Of a stretch of 64,000 bases of DNA, positions 11,933 through 24,892 are shown one piece after another. The notes beneath the pieces were generated by a model, which worked only from the letters and a program-made list of their open reading frames with translations, ran no database searches and was not told where the DNA came from. A program made the position numbers and the translations under genes. Source of the DNA: [Mycobacterium] nativiensis (GTDB lineage: Bacteria; Actinomycetota; Actinomycetes; Mycobacteriales; Mycobacteriaceae). The DNA is taken from contig NZ_CP083986.1 of the NCBI RefSeq assembly GCF_020172685.1, forward strand, positions 4,172,158 to 4,236,157, written 5' to 3'. The stretch's first letter is position 1; the number at the start of each line of letters is the position of its first letter.

Positions 11933-13525
11933 ATGAACGAGACGACACTTCCTGAGCCCGAGTACGACTGGCTCGTTGTCGGTTCCGGGTTCGGCGGTGC
12001 CGTTTCGGCCCTGCGCCTGGCGGAGAAGGGCTACCGGGTGGCCGTCCTTGAATGTGGCCGACGATTCACCGATGACGAATTGCCCGAGCGCACCGGCCAA
12101 TTGCGCCGCTATATCTGGATGCCCCGGCTCGGCATGAAGGGAATCCTGCGGCTGACCGCGTTTCGCGACGTGACGGTGCTTAGCGGCAGCGGAGTGGGTG
12201 GGGGCAGCCTGGTCTACGCCCAGACGCTCTACCGCGCCGAACCCGGCTTCTACGAGCAGGCCCGCACGGTCAGCGGGGAGGCCCCCGACCTGGATGCGCA
12301 CTACGCCGTCGCCGAACGCATGCTGGGTGTCGTCGAGCACCCGCACCGGACGCCGGCCGATGAGCTGTTCCACAAGGTTGCTGAGTCGATGGGTGTCGCG
12401 GACACGTTTCACCCGGCGCGGGTCGGCGTGTACTTCGGGGAGCCCGGTGTCACCGTGCCGGACCCGTTCTTCGACGGCGCCGGTCCGGCGCGAACCGGTT
12501 GCATCTCGTGCGGAGAGTGCATGCTCGGCTGCCGCTACAACGCCAAGAACACCCTGCCGAAGAATTATCTGTGGCTCGCCGAGCGACTCGGGGTGCAGAT
12601 CATTCCGGAACGCACGGCGACGCTGATCCGACCGCGCGGGGCCGCCGACGGCGCCGACGGCTACGTCGTCACCACTCAGCGCACCGGGGCGTGGGTCCGC
12701 AAAGACACCCGCGAGGTCTCCGCCCGCGGTGTGGTGGTGGCAGCCGGCGCGCTGGGTACCAACCTGCTGCTCGCGCGCAGCAAGCACACCGGCGCGCTGG
12801 CAGGGATCTCCGACCGGCTCGGCCACATGGTACGGACCAACAGCGAATCGCTGACGGCGGTGACCGTCCCGGAGGATCGCGACTGGAGCAAGAGCGTATC
12901 CATCACGTCGAGTTTTCACCCCGCCCCGACAAGCCACACCGAAACGGTCACCTACGGCGCCAGCGCGGACATGATGGGGCTGCTGTTCACGATGCTCACC
13001 CCGGGTGGCGGCCGAATCAGCCGGCCACTGAAGCTGTTTGCGCAGATTCTGCGGCATCCCCGGCGATTCCTGCATGCCAGTAACCCGCGCGGGTGGTCTC
13101 GTCGGTCCCTGATCACCGGGATCATGCAGACGCTGGACAATTCCCTGCAACTGGTGCCCAAGCGATCACCGCTGGGTCGGGTGCGGCTGACCACGCGTCA
13201 GGATCCGGATAACCCCATCCCCACGTTCATCCCGCTTGCCAACGAGATCACCCAGCGGCTCGCAGAGGAGACGGGCGGCGTGGCGCAGAGCTGGATCACC
13301 GAGGCCCTGTTCAATATTCCGGTCACGGCGCACATCCTCGGCGGCGCTATTCCCGCGATCAGTCCCGACCGCGGCGTGATCGACATGGATCATCGGGTTT
13401 TCGGCTACCTGAATCTGATGGTCTGCGATGGGTCGGCGGTGCCGGCGAACCCGGGCGCCAACCCTAGCCTGACGATCACCGCGATGGCCGAGCGCGCGAT
13501 GGCCACCGTGCCGCCGGCGCACTGA
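11933..13525 (+). CDS. GMC-type FAD oxidoreductase (cholesterol-oxidase-like)
   Basis: A 530-residue flavoprotein. The N-terminal FAD loop is VVGSGFGGAVSALRLAEKGY, followed by GSGVGGGSLVYAQTL. A cysteine cluster CISCGECMLGC (about residues 190-200) is characteristic of the ChoD-like GMC subgroup in actinobacteria. The C-terminal PANPGANPSLTITAMAERA closes the FAD domain. Such enzymes oxidise alcohol groups of sterols or other lipids. Given the neighbouring aldehyde dehydrogenase and long-chain ligase, a fatty-alcohol dehydrogenase role is as likely as a steroid one. It starts 9 bases after the acyl-CoA dehydrogenase stop, with GGTGAAGG upstream. Confidence 0.87.
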   Translation: MNETTLPEPEYDWLVVGSGFGGAVSALRLAEKGYRVAVLECGRRFTDDELPERTGQLRRYIWMPRLGMKGILRLTAFRDVTVLSGSGVGGGSLVYAQTLYRAEPGFYEQARTVSGEAPDLDAHYAVAERMLGVVEHPHRTPADELFHKVAESMGVADTFHPARVGVYFGEPGVTVPDPFFDGAGPARTGCISCGECMLGCRYNAKNTLPKNYLWLAERLGVQIIPERTATLIRPRGAADGADGYVVTTQRTGAWVRKDTREVSARGVVVAAGALGTNLLLARSKHTGALAGISDRLGHMVRTNSESLTAVTVPEDRDWSKSVSITSSFHPAPTSHTETVTYGASADMMGLLFTMLTPGGGRISRPLKLFAQILRHPRRFLHASNPRGWSRRSLITGIMQTLDNSLQLVPKRSPLGRVRLTTRQDPDNPIPTFIPLANEITQRLAEETGGVAQSWITEALFNIPVTAHILGGAIPAISPDRGVIDMDHRVFGYLNLMVCDGSAVPANPGANPSLTITAMAERAMATVPPAH

Positions 13526-15192: not shown

Positions 15193-16776
15193 TCATCCTG
15201 CTTGTGGCCAGGCATCGTCAGGCAAGGTTCGGGTGATTTCGTCGAGGGCGGCGTCGTAGTCGTCGCCGCCGAAGTGTCGGCTGCCGAGTTCATCGAGGGT
15301 CGGGTCGTAGTCGGGTTCGTCGGGGTCGGGCCATGGTGTGTCGAGCAGTGGGCCTGGTGCGTCAACGGCATCGTCGGTGCGTCGGCGGAGGCGGTCGATG
15401 ACGGCTTCGATGAAGTGGAACGGGTTGACCCGCGGTTGGCCACGGTCCAGGCGCGGGGGCGGGATCCATTCGACCCGACCGGTGTCGTCGAGCCGAGTCA
15501 GCCAGCCCTGCTCACTGGCCATCCGGTTGTCGGGGGCACACGCCAAGCCCAACGCATCAACATCGGTCTGCCCGTTGCGGGCCCAATCGTTCTCCAGATG
15601 GTGGGCCTGGGTCAGATACCCCGAGACCGAGCACCCGGGCCGCGTACACCCGCGATCGCGCGCATGCAGCACGATGCGTTGATCGGCCGAGGCGATGCGC
15701 TTGGTTCGGCCCAACCACAATGCGCGGCCTTGGCCGTCGAACACACTCAGGTAGTGATACGCGTGCCCGGCCATCCGCAGTAGGTCGGCCATCGGCAACA
15801 GACTGCCGCCGGCGGTGTGGGCTTTGCCGATCACCCGCGGTGCCGGCTCGAGCAACGGTGCGTGTTCAGCTGCAGCCTGGAGTTCGGCCAGGGTGGTCGA
15901 GACGATGACAGTGACTGGCAGCCCGTTGAGCTGCCCGAGATCACCGCACGCCAGTACCACCCGCAAGGCGGCCAACACCGCGTCGTGGTGTCGTTGATCG
16001 CGGTTGCGGTGATCGTGCTGGATCTGCTCCTGGCTGGGGGTGCCGGCGACGCAGGGCTGCTCATCGGCGGCATTGCACATTCCCGGTGCTCCCAGCTTTG
16101 CCAGGACAGGCTCCAAGGTCGCCCGCAACTCTGGGGTGATCTTGCCGCTCAAGGTGCTCATGCCGTCGGGGCCTTGCCGGCCCAACCGCAGCCCACGCCG
16201 CGCCAGGCGTTCCTGGTCGGTGAAATCTCCATCCGGACTCAACACCGCCACCAAATGATCGGCCAACCGCGCGAAGATCTCCGGGGCGAATTCCGATGCC
16301 AATACGGCCAGATCGGCCTCGGCGCGCTCCCAATCCGCCGCCCCAACCCTGGCCGGGATCTTCGCCAAGGCCTTACGCGCGATCGCCATCTGCTCCGGGC
16401 CGATCCGACCGGTGGCTTGGGCAGCGGCCAGCGCCGGCAACATCGGTTCGAGGGGTTCGCCACTGATCGCGGTGCGCGGCCCAAGCTCGGCGGCCTCGGC
16501 CATGCGCCTCCGCGCCGCCGCCGAGCTGATCCGCAACCGCTCGGTCAGTGCCTTGGTCAGTGAGCACGCCCCCAACAGTCCGGCATCACCCTCGGCAACC
16601 AACCGGGCCAGGATCCGATGTTCGACGAGCGGCGCCCGCCACGCCACCACCTCACGACGGGCTAGCACCTCCATCAACTCCTCAGCACTCAACGCGTCGA
16701 ACGAACACCTCTCCAACTCCGCATGAGCAGCTTCGATTACGTCCAGAGCAGCACCGATGCGCTCCCGATCCGCCAT
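15193..16776 (-). CDS. DUF222 / HNH endonuclease-signature protein (13E12 family)
   Basis: A 527-residue protein with an alpha-helical N-terminal DUF222 domain (about 1-330) and a C-terminal HNH nuclease domain with CTRPGC, TQAHHLENDW and ACAPDNRMAS (about 420-470). This two-domain family is multicopy and mycobacteria-rich (REP13E12/13E12 proteins). Its function is unsettled; DNA cleavage is expected from the HNH fold only. The ATG at 16776 has AGGAAGG just upstream; another ATG at 16791 lacks a ribosome-binding site. It is apparently unrelated to its neighbours, and copies of this family often mark recombination-prone places. Confidence 0.85.
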   Translation of the reverse strand: MADRERIGAALDVIEAAHAELERCSFDALSAEELMEVLARREVVAWRAPLVEHRILARLVAEGDAGLLGACSLTKALTERLRISSAAARRRMAEAAELGPRTAISGEPLEPMLPALAAAQATGRIGPEQMAIARKALAKIPARVGAADWERAEADLAVLASEFAPEIFARLADHLVAVLSPDGDFTDQERLARRGLRLGRQGPDGMSTLSGKITPELRATLEPVLAKLGAPGMCNAADEQPCVAGTPSQEQIQHDHRNRDQRHHDAVLAALRVVLACGDLGQLNGLPVTVIVSTTLAELQAAAEHAPLLEPAPRVIGKAHTAGGSLLPMADLLRMAGHAYHYLSVFDGQGRALWLGRTKRIASADQRIVLHARDRGCTRPGCSVSGYLTQAHHLENDWARNGQTDVDALGLACAPDNRMASEQGWLTRLDDTGRVEWIPPPRLDRGQPRVNPFHFIEAVIDRLRRRTDDAVDAPGPLLDTPWPDPDEPDYDPTLDELGSRHFGGDDYDAALDEITRTLPDDAWPQAG

Positions 16777-16883
16777 CGCCTTCCTGCCCATACATAGAAC
16801 ACTAGTTCGATACACCGACAAGAACACCCGCGGTGGCGGGCGCCCAACTCTAAGAAACCGTTGAGGAAATCGGAGCCCTAGTT

Positions 16884-17264
16884 CTACTGCTGAGCCAGCC
16901 GCTCGTTGTGCAGGCGCACCAGTTCCCGGAACCCCAGCCGGTGGTACTGCGGAACCGGCTGGATCCCCCACACATCCCGGGCGGTGTCCTTGCCCTCGGC
17001 CCCTTCGGGAGGACCGAGCGGTGGGTAGGGGTGCTTGCACTCCAACGTGTCATCGGAGAATCGGTTCTTGAGCAGTTCGCTGCAGATCTGGGTGAGGCTC
17101 AGCGTCGGGTAGCCGTAGTAGACCGCCATGAACGGCAGGGTGAATGCCCCCTCGATGACCAGGGCGACCAGGCACACCAGGGTGGCTCGCTTGATCCACT
17201 TGTGCATCCGGGCGTAGTACGGCGTAGTACCCGGTGGCAGGTCTTCGGCGACAGAAATGTCCAT
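16884..17264 (-). CDS. unknown 126-aa single-span membrane protein, last gene of the NorQ/NorD operon
   Basis: I do not recognise this protein. Residues about 22-48 form one hydrophobic segment ([19 protein letters not shown]) after a short polar N-terminus. The remaining ~75 residues are soluble, with Pro-rich [10 protein letters not shown], two cysteines (in TQICSEL and LECKHP) and a basic helical end. AAGGAGCG lies 5 bases before the ATG. It starts 15 bases after the membrane protein at 17280, so the two are probably made together. With the two larger membrane proteins it may form the small subunit of a membrane complex; this is inferred only from position. Confidence 0.75.
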
Positions 17265-17279
17265 CGTTGCGCTCCTTGA

Positions 17280-17972
17280 TCAGTCGGTGAAGATTTCCCG
17301 ATTCACGGTGTGTAGGTATGGGATTGCCAAGAACGGGGTGATGTAGAAGATGTCGTAGATCCACCAGCCGATCACCGGGAACACCACACCGGCATAACGC
17401 ACATCGGCATACATGGTCATGTTGAACACGTAACCGACCCAGATCACCACGCCCATCCAGCAGGTCACGATCATCCATTGATGACCCCACCGCTTCATCT
17501 GCAGGAAGCCGATCGCTGCGGCGCACCGCATGGAGAACACCGTGAGGATCAGCCCCACCACCCAGGCTTTCTCACCGGGGGCCGCCGAGCCCCCGACCCA
17601 CAGCTCGTTGTAGTGCCAGAAGTAGCTGGCGTCGAACATGCCACCCCAGCCGACCATCAGCACCCGGTTGATCAGGGTGTGATTGCCGATCATGTCCAGT
17701 GCCCAGCCGAGGCTGTTGAGGAAGCCGTCGATCAGCACCAGGTACCCGATCAGGGTGACGATCATCGGACGCACCGACAGGCCGGCGCGGGTGGCTTCGC
17801 GTTGCAACCAGACTCCGCGCATGAAGATCGGGAAGCCCAGCAGCCCGGGTACCCACATGCCCATCAGTGCCGCACCGGCGATCATCCAGCGGTCGGCTCG
17901 CCACTGGGCTGCGCGGGATTGCTCATGATGCTCCTCGAGACCGAGGGAATCCGCGCCCGCAATCGACGTCAT
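17280..17972 (-). CDS. unknown multi-spanning membrane protein, paralogue 1
   Basis: A 230-residue integral membrane protein with about six hydrophobic segments and no family I can name. It is a paralogue of the protein at 20586; both share D82, D93, H98, D114, H120 and E123 (numbering of this copy) in or near the middle spans, including DASYFWHYNELW versus DAGYYWHYNELW. This set of acidic and His residues could bind a metal. From KRWGHQW onward the two proteins are almost identical. The gene overlaps the 42-aa gene upstream (ATGA). Association with NorQ- and NorD-type genes suggests a metal-dependent membrane enzyme needing ATP-driven activation; that is inference. Confidence 0.8.
   Translation of the reverse strand: MTSIAGADSLGLEEHHEQSRAAQWRADRWMIAGAALMGMWVPGLLGFPIFMRGVWLQREATRAGLSVRPMIVTLIGYLVLIDGFLNSLGWALDMIGNHTLINRVLMVGWGGMFDASYFWHYNELWVGGSAAPGEKAWVVGLILTVFSMRCAAAIGFLQMKRWGHQWMIVTCWMGVVIWVGYVFNMTMYADVRYAGVVFPVIGWWIYDIFYITPFLAIPYLHTVNREIFTD
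17323..17465. repeat. 143-bp tract identical to 20629-20771
   Basis: The 3' part of the membrane-protein gene at 17280 is base-for-base identical over 143 bases to 20629-20771 in its paralogue, in direct orientation and 3306 bases apart, while sequence outside the tract differs clearly. This pattern fits recent gene conversion or very strong selection on this part. Recombination between the two would delete the NorQ/NorD genes. Confidence 0.9.
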
Positions 17973-18097
17973 AACGTCCACCACCCGCGGGCGAAGGACA
18001 TGTAGAGCTGGATGCCGAACATGATGGCCAAATAACCGTAGATGAAGATCTGAAAGACGATCAGTGCTCTTTTGCGTTTCCGTTCTTGCTGGTCCAT
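17969..18097 (-). CDS. unknown 42-aa membrane peptide
   Basis: A small gene with a polar, strongly basic start (MDQQERKRKR) followed by one hydrophobic segment (ALIVFQIFIYGYLAIMFGI) and a short tail ending in RGWWTL. GGGAAG lies upstream of the ATG. Its stop overlaps the start of the next gene (ATGA), and it begins 17 bases after the AAA+ gene. The fit between two genes and the clear transmembrane pattern support expression. A comparable 34-aa peptide accompanies the second membrane paralogue, suggesting one small partner per large subunit. Confidence 0.68.
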   Translation of the reverse strand: MDQQERKRKRALIVFQIFIYGYLAIMFGIQLYMSFARGWWTL

Positions 18098-18114
18098 GAC
18101 TGCGACTTCCCTTT

Positions 18115-18909
18115 CTAGTGAGCCTGATTCGGGGTGACGAACACGCCGGCCGCGACTTCACGCAGGCCGTCGTGAATCCCTCCGTCGGTGGTGAGCGGCG
18201 CGAGGATGCAGGCTTCGGCGGCTTCGATCTCATTGGCTCCGTCGGCCACCAGCTGCGCCGCGCTTACCAGTGCCCGCGTGGACGGCGGTTCGAAGTGAAA
18301 TGCCTGGTCTGCGTTGCGAAGTGCGTCGGCACATGCCACGAGGCGTTCCGCGACCGACAAAGCGATGCCGGTCTCCGCGACGATCACGGCTGCTTCACGG
18401 TCCGGCGGCAGGTAGTCCATGGCGAGCGTTGCGAAGCGTTGCCGAAATGACGGCTTGAGCTCCTTGAGCGAGCTCCGATAGGCCGGATTGTAGGAGCAGA
18501 CCAGCATGAACGTCTCAGGGGCCGTGACCACTTCGCCCGCACGGTCCAGATACAGGCTGCGACGGTGATCGGTCAGGGAGTGCAGGATCGCCAGCGAGTC
18601 GTGCCGCGCCTCGACCACTTCGTCGAGGTAGCAGATGGCCCCGGCTTTCACCGCTTTGGTCAGCGGCCCATCGGTCCACCTCACATCACCACCGGCCACC
18701 ATGAACCGGCCGACCAGATCCGAACTGGTCAGGTCGTCATGGCAGCTGATGGTGATCACCGGACGCCCCAGCAGCAGGCCCATGTGTTCGACCAGCCTGG
18801 TCTTGCCGCAGCCCGTGGGCCCGGTCAGCATCACCGGAATGCGCCGCCGGTAGGCCCTTTCGAACAGCTGCACCTCATTGCCATTGGCCAGATAGGTATC
18901 GGTTGTCAT
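18115..18909 (-). CDS. norQ: MoxR-class AAA+ ATPase, NorQ/NirQ/CbbQ type
   Basis: A 264-residue AAA+ ATPase. Walker A is GPTGCGKTR (about residues 29-37), Walker B ICYLDEV, followed by a sensor-1-like VCSYNPAY and the SFRQRF arginine region. Length and motif spacing match the NorQ/NirQ/CbbQ group, which works with a VWA-domain partner to activate metalloenzymes such as nitric oxide reductase or Rubisco. The VWA partner is directly upstream. No nitric oxide reductase catalytic subunit or Rubisco is in the window, so the client is more likely one of the adjacent membrane proteins. The ATG at 18909 follows a GGAGGACACCG stretch. Confidence 0.85.
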   Translation of the reverse strand: MTTDTYLANGNEVQLFERAYRRRIPVMLTGPTGCGKTRLVEHMGLLLGRPVITISCHDDLTSSDLVGRFMVAGGDVRWTDGPLTKAVKAGAICYLDEVVEARHDSLAILHSLTDHRRSLYLDRAGEVVTAPETFMLVCSYNPAYRSSLKELKPSFRQRFATLAMDYLPPDREAAVIVAETGIALSVAERLVACADALRNADQAFHFEPPSTRALVSAAQLVADGANEIEAAEACILAPLTTDGGIHDGLREVAAGVFVTPNQAH

Positions 18910-18931
18910 CGGTGTCCTCCATCGGTATCTG

Positions 18932-20449
18932 TCATGCGGCAACCAGTTCGCGGTGCACGTGGGCCAGCACGCGCGGCAGCTCCTCGATACGCCGGATGCG
19001 CCGAGAGCAGCGCTGGCCGAACACCTCCGGCAGCGGATCAACGCGGACCGGGCCAACCCCGACGTAGTAGACACAGACCCCGGCCTCGTTGGCCTCTTCG
19101 ACCGCGTGCGCCACATCGGCCCAGGCGTAGCGGCCCTCGTAGCCCTCGTCGGACATCAGGCCGTCGCCGATCACGATCAGCAGCCGCCGCTGCGACGGTT
19201 GCGCAATCAGCCGACTGGTCAGATGACGCAGCGGAGCACCCAGCCGGGTGTAACCGCCGGCCAGCAGCCCCAGGTCACTGGGCGCCACCAACCTGCGATC
19301 ACCGAAGTCCTTCAGGCAGTGCACCGCCACGTGATGGCGGGTATTGCCGGTGAAGGCGAAGACACCGTGTCGTTGATGGGCACGCGTCATCGCACCCGAC
19401 AGCGCGTCAGCGCAGGCCAGTTCCAGGCGGAAGAGCCGGCCGCCGTGCACCCCCAGCGAGGAGCTCGCGTCCAGCAGCAGCGCGGTCGCCACGTCCCGGC
19501 CTGCGGGCAGCAGTTCCCGGAATAGTCGTGGTTCGTCGCATTCCCCGGTCAAGGTGTCGAGGTGATGGCTGACGTAGGCGTCGACGTCGAGGTCCGAACC
19601 ATCCTCCAATCCGTTGGTCATCGCCCGAGCCGTGCTCTGCTCAAACCACTTCCGCAGATCCATGCGGGCCGCCGTGTGCTGGCCCCGACGGGCGGTCCAG
19701 GCGTGTTCGACGACGGCGACATGGTCAGGCAGGAACCTGCCGGAATGGGCGTTCCATTCGGGGTACGGGATGCCCGGTCGCCGCTCGGCGGAGGTGTAGC
19801 CGTCGTCCTCGTCCGGTCTGCTCGGCGGCGGCAGGCTGGTGTTGCGCACCCCGCCCTCACCGCCGACCGGTACGGAATAGGCCCGGGGTCGGCGTTTCTG
19901 CGTGCTGGACCATGGCATTCGGCCGATACGGCGTATCGACTCGGTCAAGCTGCCGGATGCTGTCCACGTCCTCGGCAACGTCCCCACCAGCGGATACCAG
20001 GCCAGCTCACCCCGGGCTCGCGCCAATTCGATGGCGCGGTCGAACATCTCGTTCGCGGACAGGTCCGGGTCGCAGGGCTCGAGGTTGGCCAGCCGGCGTC
20101 GGAGTTCGGGCAATAGGCCGGGCCATCGGCGGCCCACCCATCCCAGCGCCACCTGCGCCTCCACGAATGTCAGGGCCCGCAGTTCGCGCGAGGTCAGCTC
20201 CGCCAGGTGGTATGCGGCGATCCGCTCCTTGGACGGTGAGCACTGCAGCGCCACACCGCCGGTCAACGTCCGGCGGGTCCAGTCCGGCGGCATCGGGTAT
20301 GGCACTTCGACAGTGGACAGCGTCGAAGTCACCCCGAACCCGCGCTTGGCCCCGGTCACCAGGCGTGCACCGTCGCGACGCCGATCGCTCAGCGCGACCG
20401 CGGTCAGTGCGCAACTGCTCTCCAGCTCCAACGGGTTCACGTCGGCCAA
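18932..20449 (-). CDS. norD: VWA-domain protein, NorD/CbbO type
   Basis: About 505 residues; the C-terminal third is a von Willebrand factor A domain with the metal-binding MIDAS motif DASSS (in LLLDASSSLG, about residue 350) and later LLIVIGDGLMSDEGY. The N-terminal part is helical and basic, as in NorD and CbbO. Partner of the NorQ-type ATPase that follows after 22 bases. In known pairs the VWA protein recruits the client and the hexameric ATPase remodels it to insert or activate metal. The start is uncertain: TTG at 20449 or GTG at 20440, neither with a strong ribosome-binding site, so coupling to the 34-aa gene just upstream is likely. Confidence 0.82.
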   Translation of the reverse strand: MADVNPLELESSCALTAVALSDRRRDGARLVTGAKRGFGVTSTLSTVEVPYPMPPDWTRRTLTGGVALQCSPSKERIAAYHLAELTSRELRALTFVEAQVALGWVGRRWPGLLPELRRRLANLEPCDPDLSANEMFDRAIELARARGELAWYPLVGTLPRTWTASGSLTESIRRIGRMPWSSTQKRRPRAYSVPVGGEGGVRNTSLPPPSRPDEDDGYTSAERRPGIPYPEWNAHSGRFLPDHVAVVEHAWTARRGQHTAARMDLRKWFEQSTARAMTNGLEDGSDLDVDAYVSHHLDTLTGECDEPRLFRELLPAGRDVATALLLDASSSLGVHGGRLFRLELACADALSGAMTRAHQRHGVFAFTGNTRHHVAVHCLKDFGDRRLVAPSDLGLLAGGYTRLGAPLRHLTSRLIAQPSQRRLLIVIGDGLMSDEGYEGRYAWADVAHAVEEANEAGVCVYYVGVGPVRVDPLPEVFGQRCSRRIRRIEELPRVLAHVHRELVAA

Positions 20450-20461
20450 CTCGACCGCGGC

Positions 20462-20566
20462 TCAGAAGGTTCCGATGGAGTCGAACATCCAGTACCAGAA
20501 TGCGATGATCAAACCGGTTCCGCCCCATGCGGCGACGTAACGGAGGATCTCCCAGAGCCAGGCCAT
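20462..20566 (-). CDS. unknown 34-aa membrane peptide
   Basis: A very small gene whose product is almost entirely one hydrophobic segment rich in Trp and aromatics, from MAWLWEILRYVAAW through LIIAFWYWMF to a short polar end. AGGGAG lies 5 bases before the ATG, a near-ideal ribosome-binding site. It sits 19 bases after membrane paralogue 2 and 12 bases before the VWA gene. Together with the 42-aa peptide it suggests that each large membrane subunit has a small single-span companion. Confidence 0.65.
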   Translation of the reverse strand: MAWLWEILRYVAAWGGTGLIIAFWYWMFDSIGTF

Positions 20567-20585
20567 CAGAACTCCCTATCGTTGG

Positions 20586-21284
20586 TCAGTCGGAGAAGAT
20601 CTCGCGATTGACGGTGTGTAGGTACGGAATTGCCAAGAACGGGGTGATGTAGAAGATGTCGTAGATCCACCAGCCGATCACCGGGAACACCACACCGGCA
20701 TAACGCACATCGGCATACATGGTCATGTTGAACACGTAACCGACCCAGATCACCACGCCCATCCAGCAGGTGATGATCATCCACTGATGACCCCATCGCT
20801 TCATCTGCAGAAAGCCGATTCCGGCTGCGATCCGCATGGTGAAGACGGTCAGGATGAGCCCGACCTCCCAAGCCTTTTCGCCCGGGCCCGCGGCACCGCC
20901 GATCCACAGCTCGTTGTAGTGCCAGTAATATCCGGCGTCGAACATCGCGCCCCACCCGTTGAGCAGCACGCGGGCCAGCAGGGTGTGGCTGGCCATCATG
21001 TCCAGCGCCCATCCCACGGTGTTGATCGCGGCATCGATGACGACCAGGTAGCCCAGCAGGGTGACCAGCATCGGCCGTACCGTCAGTCCGTCGCGTTGAG
21101 CCCGGCGCAGCAACCAGATTCCGCGCAGGAAAAGCGGGAGGCCGAAGATTCCGGCGGCGGCCGTGCCGATGAGCAGGCCGCCGGAGATCAACCACTTGTC
21201 AGCGCGGCGCTGGGCGGCCCGCGAGGAGTCCAGATGCTCGTCGAGCCCGAGTCCGTCGCGCGGATGCTGCGGTGCGGTGCGCAA
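20586..21284 (-). CDS. unknown multi-spanning membrane protein, paralogue 2
   Basis: A 232-residue membrane protein, first gene of the operon and paralogue of the protein at 17280. The N-terminal two thirds are similar but diverged; the last ~70 residues differ by only a few conservative changes. The intramembrane acidic and His residues listed for paralogue 1 are kept (LDMMASHTL, DAGYYWHYNELW). The start is most likely TTG at 21284, because an in-frame stop lies two codons upstream, the N-terminus then aligns with paralogue 1, and GAGGGG is suitably placed. A rare start may lower expression. Family and function not recognised. Confidence 0.8.
   Translation of the reverse strand: MRTAPQHPRDGLGLDEHLDSSRAAQRRADKWLISGGLLIGTAAAGIFGLPLFLRGIWLLRRAQRDGLTVRPMLVTLLGYLVVIDAAINTVGWALDMMASHTLLARVLLNGWGAMFDAGYYWHYNELWIGGAAGPGEKAWEVGLILTVFTMRIAAGIGFLQMKRWGHQWMIITCWMGVVIWVGYVFNMTMYADVRYAGVVFPVIGWWIYDIFYITPFLAIPYLHTVNREIFSD
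20629..20771. repeat. 143-bp tract identical to 17323-17465
   Basis: Second copy of the perfect direct repeat within the two membrane-protein genes. It covers the last transmembrane segments and most of the conserved C-terminus. Confidence 0.9.
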
Positions 21285-21333: not shown

Positions 21334-21355
21334 TGACTTAAGTCAATGACTTTTG
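21334..21355. promoter_or_regulatory. probable TetR operator (palindrome TGACTTAAGTCA plus extra half-site)
   Basis: Positions 21334-21345 read TGACTTAAGTCA, a perfect 12-base palindrome, followed at once by A-TGACTT, so that AGTCA-A-TGACT is a second overlapping inverted repeat. The block lies about 50 bases upstream of the TTG of the membrane-protein operon and just past the stop of the TetR gene. A one-mismatch copy lies at 22062-22073 upstream of that TetR gene. The paired placement suggests that the TetR represses both itself and the operon. Confidence 0.65.
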
Positions 21356-21363
21356 GGGTCGGA

Positions 21364-21978
21364 TCAGTGTTGCGCGCGGAGCCCGCGGATCGTCCTGGTC
21401 AGGTAGTCATCGACCAACTCCGGCCGGTTCGGCCAGTCGTGGGTGGTGATCAACAGTGCGTACAGGCCCAGCAGAAAGAACACCGCGCTGTTCATGGCGA
21501 TGACGTCGTCGTCGATCTCGCCGGAGGCTCGCGCGGCTTCGATCCGCTCGGCGACCAGGACGATCAGTGGATGATCCTGCCCGCCTTCCAACGGCGGCCG
21601 GGTCGGCGAGAAGTGCAGCGCCAGGAAGTCGGTGAACAACGCCTCCCCTAAGCGGCGTTCCAGGTCCATGATCATCCGCACCGCTTCGGCCAGGGCGTCC
21701 GAAACATCTTGGTGGGTACGGAGATACTTCCGCAGCTGCTTGGCGATGCGCTCCTCCTCCCGGCGCTCCACCTCCAGCAGCACATGCTCCTTGGTGGGAA
21801 AGTGGAAGAAGAACGTGCCGTGCGCGACACCGGCGGCGGCCACGATGGCGCCGACATCAGCCTGGGCCATCCCGGTCCGTTTGAACTCGGCAGTGGCCGC
21901 GCCGAGCAGCCTCTCACGAGTCTGGAGGCGCTTGGCCTCACGTGCCGTCATCTTGTCCGGCTTGTCCGCCACCACCAT
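21364..21978 (-). CDS. TetR-family regulator, likely repressor of the NorQ/NorD membrane operon
   Basis: A 204-residue TetR protein. The N-terminal helix-turn-helix spans about residues 12-58, with LLGAATAEFKRTG, then VGAIVAAAGVAHGTFFFHFPTKE, matching the usual HTH consensus. The remainder is the helical ligand-binding domain. It lies between the operon and the bfd gene, transcribed in the same direction as both. Palindromes of the same type lie upstream and downstream of it, which supports autoregulation and control of 16884-21284. The ligand is unknown. Confidence 0.85.
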   Translation of the reverse strand: MVVADKPDKMTAREAKRLQTRERLLGAATAEFKRTGMAQADVGAIVAAAGVAHGTFFFHFPTKEHVLLEVERREEERIAKQLRKYLRTHQDVSDALAEAVRMIMDLERRLGEALFTDFLALHFSPTRPPLEGGQDHPLIVLVAERIEAARASGEIDDDVIAMNSAVFFLLGLYALLITTHDWPNRPELVDDYLTRTIRGLRAQH

Positions 21979-22061: not shown

Positions 22062-22073
22062 TGACTCAAGTCA
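22062..22073. promoter_or_regulatory. probable TetR operator, second copy (TGACTCAAGTCA)
   Basis: Differs by one base from the perfect palindrome at 21334-21345. It lies 84 bases upstream of the TetR start codon and overlaps the last codon and stop of the bfd gene. Confidence 0.6.
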
Positions 22074-22254: not shown

Positions 22255-23700
22255 TCACGCCCCGGCGTCGATCTCCAGCTGTACCTTGTCCACCTTGCCG
22301 GTGGCGTTCAGCGGCAGCCGGTCCACGAAACGCACCGACCGCGGAACCTTGAAGCCGGCCATCCGGTTTCGACTCCAGGCGATCAGATCGGCTTCGGAGA
22401 CCTGGGCCTTGGTTACCACGAACGCCCGGCCCACCTGCCCGAGTCGCTCGTCGGGGACGCCGATCACCGCGACCTGCGCGACGGCCGGATGTTCCAGCAG
22501 GAAACCCTCGATCTCGGCCGGGTAGGCGTTGAAGCCGCCGACGATGAACATGTCCTTCTTACGGCCGACGATCCGAAGCCGGCCGGCGGGATCCAGCGTT
22601 CCGACGTCGCCGGTGTGCAGCCAGCCTTGGGCGTCGATCGCCTCGGCGGTCGCCTCCGGATCGTCGAGATAGCCGACCATCACGTTGTAGCCGCGCACCA
22701 GAACCTCACCGTCGTCGGCGATGCGGATCTCGATGTCCTCGCAGGCCCGACCGGCCGTGGTCGCGATGTCCTCGAAGGAGTCGCCGCGGCGCGACGCCGT
22801 CACGGTGCCCGCCTCGGTGAGCCCGTACCCGGTCATGATGGACCCGAACGGCAGTTCGCTGCGGATTCGGCGGATCAGGTCCACCGGGATGTCCGCGGCA
22901 CCGGTGACCGCGGCCCGCAGCGAGGACAGGTCACGCCCCGCGGCGGCGCCCAGCAGGGACTGATACAGCGTGGGCGGCCCCGGAAGCATGGTGATGCGTT
23001 CGCGTTCAATGATTTCCAGCGCGGCGTCGACGTCGAACACCCGTACCGGGAGCATGGTGGCACCCCGGATACAGGAGGCGATGCAGCCCGCCTTGTAGCC
23101 GAAGGTGTGGAAGTAGGGGTTGACCATCAGATAACGGTCACCCTCACGCAGGTCGGCCAGATCGCACCATTCGGCGTAGAGTCGCAGGTTCTGTTGGTGG
23201 GTCATCATCACGCCCTTGGGCCGGCCGGTCGTGCCCGAGGTGAAGATGATGTCGGCGATGTCGTCACCGTCGACCGGCACGTGCAGCGGTGACCCACCGG
23301 CCAGGAATTCCGATTTCAGGTCGATCACCGGAACCCCGGCCGGGGCGGTGAAGTCCAGTCCCAGAAAGCCTTTCTCGATCAGCACCAGCTTCGCCCCGCT
23401 GCGGCCGATGATGTCGTCGGCCTCGGAGGGCTTGAAGCGGGTGTTGACCGGGACCAGCACGCCACCTGCGGTGAGCAGACCGAACGCGGCGATGATCCAT
23501 TCCGCGGAGTTCGGCGCCCAGATCGCGGCACGGTCGCCTTTGGAGATGCCCGCCGCGGCGAATGCCCCCGCCGCGCAACGAATCCGGTCGGCCAATTCGG
23601 CAAAGCTCAGCCGCACCGAGCCGTCGGCGATCGCCTCGGCGTCCCCGAAGCGATCGCCGGCGCTCAAGACCATCTCGGGGATGGTCTGCCAGCGTGGCAC
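22255..23700 (-). CDS. FadD3-like acyl-CoA ligase
   Basis: A 481-residue adenylate-forming ligase. It has FTSGTTGRPKGVMMTHQQN, the segment NPYFHTFGYKAG (close to what I recall of FadD3), GYGLTEAGTVT, GWLHTGDVGTLDPAGRL and NATGKVDK. FadD3 activates the steroid ring C/D propionate in mycobacterial cholesterol breakdown; identity here is by general resemblance, so the substrate may be another alicyclic acid. The GTG at 23700 follows the amidohydrolase stop by one base and gives the expected N-terminus (PRWQTIPEMV); a much longer reading frame upstream is out of family and overlaps the amidohydrolase. Confidence 0.85.
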   Translation of the reverse strand: MPRWQTIPEMVLSAGDRFGDAEAIADGSVRLSFAELADRIRCAAGAFAAAGISKGDRAAIWAPNSAEWIIAAFGLLTAGGVLVPVNTRFKPSEADDIIGRSGAKLVLIEKGFLGLDFTAPAGVPVIDLKSEFLAGGSPLHVPVDGDDIADIIFTSGTTGRPKGVMMTHQQNLRLYAEWCDLADLREGDRYLMVNPYFHTFGYKAGCIASCIRGATMLPVRVFDVDAALEIIERERITMLPGPPTLYQSLLGAAAGRDLSSLRAAVTGAADIPVDLIRRIRSELPFGSIMTGYGLTEAGTVTASRRGDSFEDIATTAGRACEDIEIRIADDGEVLVRGYNVMVGYLDDPEATAEAIDAQGWLHTGDVGTLDPAGRLRIVGRKKDMFIVGGFNAYPAEIEGFLLEHPAVAQVAVIGVPDERLGQVGRAFVVTKAQVSEADLIAWSRNRMAGFKVPRSVRFVDRLPLNATGKVDKVQLEIDAGA

Positions 23701-23701
23701 C

Positions 23702-24892
23702 CTAGACGGTGACGAGCCGACCGAGGTTGCCGCCCATGATCTTGGCCTGGTCGTCGACGGGAAGGTGCGACAGGGCCGTGACGTAGTGCGTCGGCTCGGC
23801 CAGGCCCTCCGGGTGCGGCCAGTCGGATCCGTAGAGAACCTGGTCCACACCGATCAGGTTGATCAGGTCGTCGATGCCGTCTTCATAGAAGGGGCTGACG
23901 TAGATCCGGTTCTTGATCTCCTCCATCGGGTTGCCCGGGAAGGCTTCGGGCGCCTTCTTGTACACCTCGGCCATGGAGTCCAGCAGCGGGGTCATCCACT
24001 TCGACCCGGCCTCGACGATGCCCACCTTGAGCTTGGGGTGGCGGAACAGCGCGCCGTGAATCACCCAGGAGGCCACTGCATCCTGGATCGGGCGCCACTC
24101 GTTGAGGATCTGCATGGCGTTGGTCTGGAACGGCAGCATCTCCTGGGTGGCGCCGTCCCACTCCGAGGTGTAGCGGGAGTAGCCGCTGTCCGACGAGTGC
24201 ATCCCGACGAACACGTCGTACTCGACGCACTTGCGCCAGAACGGGTCGAACTCGGGGAGCGCGAAGGAACGCGGTCCGCGGAAGCCGGGCACCGGCGCCG
24301 GGCGGATCAGGATCGCGCGAGCGCCGCGCTTGACCGCCCAGTCCAGCTCTTCGATGGCCTTCTCGACGATGGGCAGGGTGATGACCGGTGTGGTGAAGAT
24401 CCGGTTCTTGTAGTTGAAGCCCCAGACCTCGTCGAGCCACTGGTTGAGCGAGTGGATGATGACGTGGATCGCGACCGGGTCGTCGCGCAGCCGCTCCTCG
24501 ATCAGACTGGCCAGGGTCGGGAACATCAGCGAACGGTCGACGCCCAGCTCGTCCATCAGCTCCAGGCGCGGCGCGGGCTCGAAGAACGCCGGAATCGACT
24601 TCATCGGCTCGCCGAACAGCTCCCGCTTGCTCTTGCCGTCGGGGTTGCCGAACTTGAAGTACTCCTCCCAGGCACCCGGCTTGGCCACCACCGAGAACGT
24701 GGGGTTGGGGATGTACTCGCTGATCTGGCCGCGGATGGCGATCTTGGTACGGCCGTTGATCTCGACGTACTGGACGATGTCCTTGTACTCCTTGGGCAAG
24801 TACTTTGTCATCGCCTCCGGCGGCTCATAGAGGTGGTTGTCCGCGTCGAACAGCGGGAAAGGGATCTCGACGCGGTGTGACAGTTGACCCAT
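23702..24892 (-). CDS. amidohydrolase family 2 (metal-dependent hydrolase)
   Basis: A 396-residue TIM-barrel hydrolase of the amidohydrolase-2 / ACMSD-like family. The first metal motif is DADNHLYEP (DxxxH variant near residue 16). Later elements are GMHSSDSG, a WVIHGALFRHPKLK helix, and the metal-proximal aspartate in LYGSDWPHPEG. Such enzymes hydrolyse or decarboxylate cyclic substrates and are common in mycobacterial steroid and aromatic loci. AAAAGGAG lies 6 bases before the ATG. First gene of an operon with the FadD3-like ligase and bfd, with an operator-like palindrome immediately upstream. C-C hydrolysis of a ring fits but is unproven. Confidence 0.84.
   Translation of the reverse strand: MGQLSHRVEIPFPLFDADNHLYEPPEAMTKYLPKEYKDIVQYVEINGRTKIAIRGQISEYIPNPTFSVVAKPGAWEEYFKFGNPDGKSKRELFGEPMKSIPAFFEPAPRLELMDELGVDRSLMFPTLASLIEERLRDDPVAIHVIIHSLNQWLDEVWGFNYKNRIFTTPVITLPIVEKAIEELDWAVKRGARAILIRPAPVPGFRGPRSFALPEFDPFWRKCVEYDVFVGMHSSDSGYSRYTSEWDGATQEMLPFQTNAMQILNEWRPIQDAVASWVIHGALFRHPKLKVGIVEAGSKWMTPLLDSMAEVYKKAPEAFPGNPMEEIKNRIYVSPFYEDGIDDLINLIGVDQVLYGSDWPHPEGLAEPTHYVTALSHLPVDDQAKIMGGNLGRLVTV

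Follow-up and report, generated by a model that had tools for sequence, protein, structure and literature searches.

A probably EXPERA-like membrane protein of mycobacteria, encoded with small membrane proteins and a NorQ/NorD pair, as the possible core of a chaperone-matured complex

The genome of [Mycobacterium] nativiensis is a single contig of 5.28 Mb (NZ_CP083986.1), and the window analysed here is the 64,000-nucleotide stretch at its positions 4172158-4236157. Between positions 16884 and 21284 of this window, seven closely packed genes of the minus strand encode what is possibly a membrane complex, built on a probably EXPERA-like protein and provided with its own maturation machinery. 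In order of transcription, and with start codons as listed, they are memA (20586-21284), coding for a multi-span membrane protein of 232 amino acids that begins with a TTG codon; p34 (20462-20566), an aromatic peptide of 34 residues with GTF at its end; a NorD-type VWA protein of 505 residues (18932-20449); a NorQ/CbbQ-type MoxR AAA+ ATPase of about 264 residues (18115-18909), in a frame that stays open farther upstream; p42 (17969-18097), a single-span membrane peptide of 42 residues; memB (17280-17972), the 230-residue paralogue of memA, for which a longer open reading frame (17280-18233) overlaps p42; and p126 (16884-17264), a single-span protein of 126 residues with a conserved glutamate in its span and two cysteines in its tail. 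A single transcript is likely, because the genes are separated by 12-22 bases, with one overlap of 4 bases (p42/memB). All the open reading frames of the original prediction, which had been made by reading the letters of this window, were thus found in place.

NorQ is over the Pfam cut-offs of both AAA_5 (122.5 bits, cut-off 22) and CbbQ_C (75 bits, cut-off 20.6), and the type first given to it can be kept; that of NorD is less secure, as its match to VWA (E 1.5e-4, 22.4 bits) stays just below the cut-off of 23.8, and the MIDAS elements DASSS, T and D are visible by eye in its sequence. A single further protein of this genome has CbbQ_C, encoded at contig position 1363238. There, again by eye, a VWA-like open reading frame precedes this second NorQ and a substrate-binding protein of the amide/amino-acid-transporter type follows it, with no mem genes on the stretch read. 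Because the second NorQ has a VWA-like neighbour of its own, the pair at the mem cluster looks dedicated. In the less biased test of this association, which covered 201 genomes of the family, mem was found in 19 and this clade of NorD in 19, the two sets being identical genome by genome, with a mem gene at most 1.2 kb from NorD in every one (listed coordinates); the positive genomes are related, and belong to 7 of 31 genera. It is on account of this identity that the membrane complex appears, from gene distribution, as the likely client of the pair, and the original view of a single conserved system, with two paralogues, small membrane peptides and NorQ/NorD, is borne out at the level of gene content.

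The arrangement itself is not due to chance. Among 80 loci, the best of 344 when ranked by similarity to memA and hence near relatives, 76 have the seven genes in intact order and strand, so that the conservation of neighbourhood proposed as a check is indeed seen. Of the four exceptions, three have genes missing close to the edge of the available DNA, and L076 is rearranged, with the remaining set inverted beside a lone memA. The closest relative turned up by the contig scan, Mycolicibacter sp. MYC098, has a memA 98% identical. Eleven further loci (L106-L116) allow us to see a simpler organization: L107-L112 read p34-NorD-NorQ-p42-mem-p126 with a single mem, L113 has two mem genes flanking p42, L115 and L116 follow the gene order of the window, L106 is incomplete, and L114, which is the third mem copy of the L116 genome, reads p34-p42-mem-p126 without adjacent NorQ/NorD, the pair being elsewhere in that genome. 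Judging from these arrangements, the basic unit is one mem with three small proteins and NorQ/NorD, and the front memA a duplication. Two pairs among the 93 loci are duplicate DNA (L029/L115 and L030/L106). Farther away, 10 of 396 genomes of the phylum scored, one of which (G261) was rejected. In G121, from another family, mem (41% identity), NorD and NorQ are adjacent and preceded by three small open reading frames with one hydrophobic span each when suitable starts are chosen; it was alone in being positive among 101 genomes surveyed in its family. Genes for a P450 and an APH-family kinase flank this locus (L100:7156-8391, 12151-13371), and the APH family is represented at L111 and L113 as well. 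A distant copy, 36% identical, is on plasmid NZ_AP022607.1 of M. branderi, where a TetR gene and small open reading frames of 40 and 82 codons stand ahead of mem; it is downstream of a CopG/VapC toxin-antitoxin pair (L120:9944-13015), and a 120-residue gene annotated as DUF4286 comes next.

MemA and MemB are paralogues, as had been proposed, with 169 of 223 residues identical (76%). Their DNA is unevenly alike, at 95.1% identity over memB residues 156-230 against 65.4% over residues 8-60, and the 49 of the 93 loci that have two ungapped mem matches each (loci with one, three or gapped matches being excluded) give medians of 90.2% for the last third against 70.6% for the first part. This suggests repeated gene conversion, or else strong constraint. 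When 58 mem members are aligned, D84, D95 and D116 (memA numbering) are invariant and position 100 is a histidine in 53. The metal-binding set originally put forward, D82, D93, H98, D114, H120 and E123 of MemB, is thus retained in part: all six residues are present in both paralogues and the three aspartates hold throughout the family, but the counterparts of H120 and E123 (H122 and E125 of MemA) are His in 29 and Glu in 27 of the 58 members respectively. The M. branderi protein keeps D84, N88, W92, D95, D116, N124, E136 and K137.

This membrane family had first been regarded as unrecognised, a view that is not supported. The best structural matches of the mem core are EBP and the sigma-2 receptor, close homologues are named emopamil-binding in UniRef, and homologues go by that name in a passage of PMC4818103 on a mycobacterial island. 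At the level of sequence the likeness stays under threshold: 15 of the 58 members match EXPERA (PF05241) at E<=1, the best with 23.4 bits for a curated cut-off of 25.7, while MemA, MemB and M. branderi P0284 do not match it; none of 22 mem proteins checked individually reaches any Pfam cut-off, and MemA and MemB have no NCBIfam match at E<=1. Comparison by hhalign with TMEM97-like bacterial EXPERA proteins gave E values of 0.36 and 0.27, not significant with a narrow profile of 24 sequences, and the families of AMO/pMMO membrane subunits are absent from the 13 Pfam families that the 58 members match at E<=1. The mem core is probably EXPERA-like, with an EBP/sigma-2 fold, as far as modelled structures can tell. 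A separate observation concerns genome G294 of the phylum, where L119:1450-3157 encodes an EBP-like protein that exceeds the Pfam cut-off (30.4 bits) and matches EBP chain 6oht_A with E 1.5e-8; its gene directly adjoins a weak match to copper type II monooxygenase (20.9 bits, cut-off 23).

The comparison with EBP can be carried, tentatively, to individual residues. Alanine scanning of EBP singled out, within positions 76-111, His76, Glu80, Trp101, Tyr104, Asp108, Arg110 and Tyr111 (PMC4263179, in part). When these residues were slid along the invariant columns of the mem family over 36 offsets, the +8 register brought four of these onto invariant mem columns (His76-D84, Glu80-N88, Asp108-D116 and Tyr111-Y119), the other 35 offsets giving three at most. 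With an assumed insert of six residues, EBP Glu122 would meet E136 of mem; the structure alignment begins at offset 7 and finishes at offset 15, a net insert of 8. EBP has acidic residues at positions 80 and 108 (PMC4263179, same passages), and in the ungapped +8 register, which is assumed here, position 108 is Asp and position 80 Asn in 58 of 58 mem members, so that the catalytic His76 and Glu80 become Asp84 and Asn88 throughout. In EBP, which works by acid-base catalysis, His76Ala and Glu80Ala each abolish activity (PMC6549186, section 9). EBP chemistry would therefore not be common to mem, since both residues are replaced in all 58 members, and we may understand the two proteins as probably sharing a modelled pocket in which the chemistry differs. 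It also follows that conservation alone is no proof of a metal, because D84 and D116 (and E136, with the insert) fall on EBP pocket positions.

The small proteins travel with the cluster, a counterpart of p34 being present in 90 of 91 loci and one of p42 in 87, and residues E38, C61 and C76 of p126 are present in all 87 aligned sequences from the same loci. The first description of three membrane proteins of 34, 42 and 126 residues is upheld for p42 and p126, each with one hydrophobic span in a Kyte-Doolittle scan, but p34 stays below the threshold of that scan; it is probably single-span too. Among 438 open reading frames from the loci of G121 and M. branderi, the p34 profile puts first L100_8679 (E 0.011), the p126 profile L120_11573 (E 0.035) and then L100_8855 (E 0.09), all three adjoining mem, and the p42 profile has no match; from these faint similarities the small subunits seem old. 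Downstream of the cluster, a 615-residue DUF222-domain frame (15193-17040) overlaps the end of p126, and its true start is probably farther inside.

Upstream of memA stands a TetR-family gene (21364-21978, minus strand; Pfam TetR_N), the probable regulator of the system, with operator-like palindromes 50 bp upstream of memA (TGACTTAAGTCA, 21334-21345) and 84 bp upstream of the TetR gene itself (TGACTCAAGTCA, 22062-22073). These are the only two sites for TGACTNNAGTCA in the whole genome, each matched on both strands, a control pattern giving a single match on each strand. Across 92 loci we counted 145 sites, distributed in 82 of them, against 0.46 expected from composition; with crude gene calls, the motif is near a mem start in 61 loci, near TetR in 46, near a short-chain dehydrogenase/reductase (SDR) in 31 and near a DapB-like gene in 15, and it is absent from L108-L111, L113 and L114 even at two mismatches. 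A relative of the TetR of the system (query from L028) is found in 86 of 93 loci, and in some loci, such as L024 and L028, a TetR gene is between memA and p34. The TetR protein would bind sites of this type, and the system is probably co-regulated.

Next to the TetR gene are a FadD3-family acyl-CoA ligase (22255-23850, minus strand; NF005801, 764.4 bits, cut-off 657), which we take as context only, an amidohydrolase and a second ligase, followed by two P450-like genes (below the cut-offs of P450 models) and an SDR of mycofactocin type that exceeds its cut-off. The opposite flank has the DUF222 gene, an aldehyde dehydrogenase, a GMC oxidoreductase with a cholesterol-oxidase model as best match (547 bits, cut-off 850) and genes of beta-oxidation type. 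P450-like genes are present in 71 of the 93 loci, a DapB-like gene in 68 and an SDR in 66, numbers inflated by shared ancestry and resting on crude gene calls. L107 has genes of steroid type (3beta-HSD-like, 4-hydroxy-2-oxovalerate aldolase, FAA hydrolase), a KshA_C Rieske protein (E 4.1e-25) is encoded near the M. branderi copy, and the surroundings of other single-mem loci differ, with for example a glycosyltransferase, an ABC transporter or a Rho-like gene nearby. Three emopamil-binding homologues on a mycobacterial island are likewise accompanied by a TetR gene and a probable cholesterol dehydrogenase (PMC4818103, in part). The neighbourhood may thus point to catabolism of ring lipids. Two more precise ideas were set aside. 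The GMC oxidoreductase, aldehyde dehydrogenase, ligase, amidohydrolase and mycofactocin-type SDR common to the window and the M. branderi locus do not make a conserved pathway cluster; theirs is a likeness of class only, because the GMC proteins show no similarity at E 1e-5 and identity in the four remaining pairs is 27-47%. Membership of the main cholesterol cluster was ruled out by one marker, FadA5, which is about 386 kb past the end of the window.

The reading that we tentatively prefer, at somewhat less than an even chance, is that of an EXPERA-like membrane complex with small single-span subunits, matured by its dedicated NorQ/NorD pair and working in lipid, perhaps steroid, catabolism. 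Its core would be the EBP/sigma-2-receptor-like protein, duplicated in this clade, with p34, p42 and p126 as partners. A NorQ ring with bound NorD would remodel the complex from the cytoplasm and so activate it; the most likely mechanism would be admission of a metal or another cofactor to the polar pocket lined by the invariant D84, N88, D95, D116, N124 and E136. The local TetR would control the cluster and, in many species, probably also the neighbouring SDR and DapB-like genes, and the substrate would probably be a polycyclic or lipid molecule partitioned in the membrane, perhaps steroid-like, in a catabolic pathway. Formation of the complex, action of the chaperone upon it, cofactor and class of substrate are here what we infer. 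Against this proposal stands the distant plasmid copy, since the whole 864-kb record of the M. branderi plasmid (the plasmid only) has no CbbQ_C match. Such a copy would sit better with a core devoid of metal, an EXPERA-like double-bond isomerase with altered acids or a binder or transporter of sterols or lipids, in a complex that NorQ/NorD would just help to assemble or remodel, much as CbbQ/CbbO probably do with Rubisco. That account, somewhat unlikely in our opinion, draws upon EBP and sigma-2 as best structural matches, neither of which is known to be a metal enzyme, and upon the invariant D84, N88, D116 and Y119, placed on EBP pocket positions in the +8 register. EBP itself proceeds by acid-base chemistry (PMC6549186, in part), but the residues essential there would be Asp and Asn here, so that isomerase chemistry is not simply transferable, and a dedicated NorQ/NorD pair would be costly for a simple isomerase.

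A metalloenzyme, as first predicted, is possible by analogy, as nitric oxide reductase, Rubisco and CO dehydrogenase, the clients named in that prediction, all use metals and the His and Glu of EBP would be Asp and Asn here. It had been stated at the time that a fold from a non-metal family, or occurrence of the membrane proteins apart from NorQ/NorD, would speak against it; the structure comparison leads to a fold that is not known to bind metal, and L114 and the plasmid copy have no adjoining pair, so that both points have come up in part. In its boldest form, which we hold to be unlikely, a sterol-isomerase fold would have turned into a membrane metalloenzyme, Asp and Asn in place of His and Glu forming, with D95, D116, N124, E136 and usually H100, a metal site loaded by NorQ/NorD, while the three small subunits would complete the complex, a redox enzyme or oxygenase acting on polycyclic lipids. 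More unlikely still is an oxygenase or reductase whose fold is peculiar to it and has no known relatives. For this one could invoke the failure of the 22 individually checked mem proteins to reach a Pfam cut-off and of MemA and MemB to match NCBIfam, the three invariant aspartates with the nearly constant H100, and the membrane metalloenzyme nitric oxide reductase as the known client of NorQ/NorD (PMC9976466, in part); yet fold and sub-threshold sequence matches agree on one known superfamily, and H122 and E125 are not conserved. Finally, the client might be encoded elsewhere, for instance another oxidoreductase, with nothing but regulation in common with the membrane genes. The copies of L114 and M. 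branderi could be so explained, but the identical distribution of mem and NorD, their adjacency in the 41%-identical G121 locus and the VWA-like neighbour of the second NorQ make this very improbable.

Should the EXPERA-like complex matured by NorQ/NorD be real, its interest would extend beyond mycobacteria. EXPERA proteins are relevant to human disease (EBP, TM6SF2, sigma-2), and a bacterial relative in a compact cluster with its own activating machine would give a handle on what the fold can do; as of 2014, EBP was the only member of known molecular function (PMC4263179, in part). The list of clients of MoxR/VWA chaperones would widen, and a step may be added to the catabolism of lipids or steroids in mycobacteria. 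If the metal site were to exist, this would be the first EXPERA-type metalloenzyme, to our knowledge, and a new class of NorQ/NorD client.

How far was this known? On genomic island GI4 of UM_CSW, a TetR gene accompanies the genes of three proteins that resemble the EBP of M. rhodesiae and very likely belong to the mem family (PMC4818103), and the PF05241 proteins with about six spans of Mycobacterium, Mycolicibacterium, Microbacterium and Nocardia in a genome encyclopedia of Actinobacteria possibly do so (PMC9903846); NorQ/NorD, small subunits and an operator go unmentioned in the relevant passages of both papers. Open-licence PMC full text yielded no article joining emopamil with MoxR, and none joining EXPERA with bacteria and mycobacteria. 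The EXPERA-type naming of homologues is therefore already known, while in that literature the partnership with NorQ/NorD and small subunits was not found. Compared with EBP, the 3-beta-hydroxysteroid Delta8,Delta7-isomerase of PF05241, mem has Asp84/Asn88 for His76/Glu80, an extra helix (14-40) ahead of the aligned region, small subunits and NorQ/NorD as companions, and a sequence under the family cut-off. The sigma-2 receptor/TMEM97 and its bacterial relatives (formerly DUF2781) are proteins of about 170-180 residues, and no NorQ/NorD was seen beside the bacterial ones in two short stretches (L117, L118). In Paracoccus, the NorQ/NorD pair inserts non-heme iron into nitric oxide reductase (PMC9976466, in part). 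Our cluster has in common with the known NorQ/NorD systems a CbbQ_C MoxR-class AAA+ protein and a VWA-type protein adjoining genes for membrane proteins; it differs from them in that NorB/NorC are absent among the seven genes, and where the known client is a relative of heme-copper oxidases, the client here would be an EXPERA-like protein.
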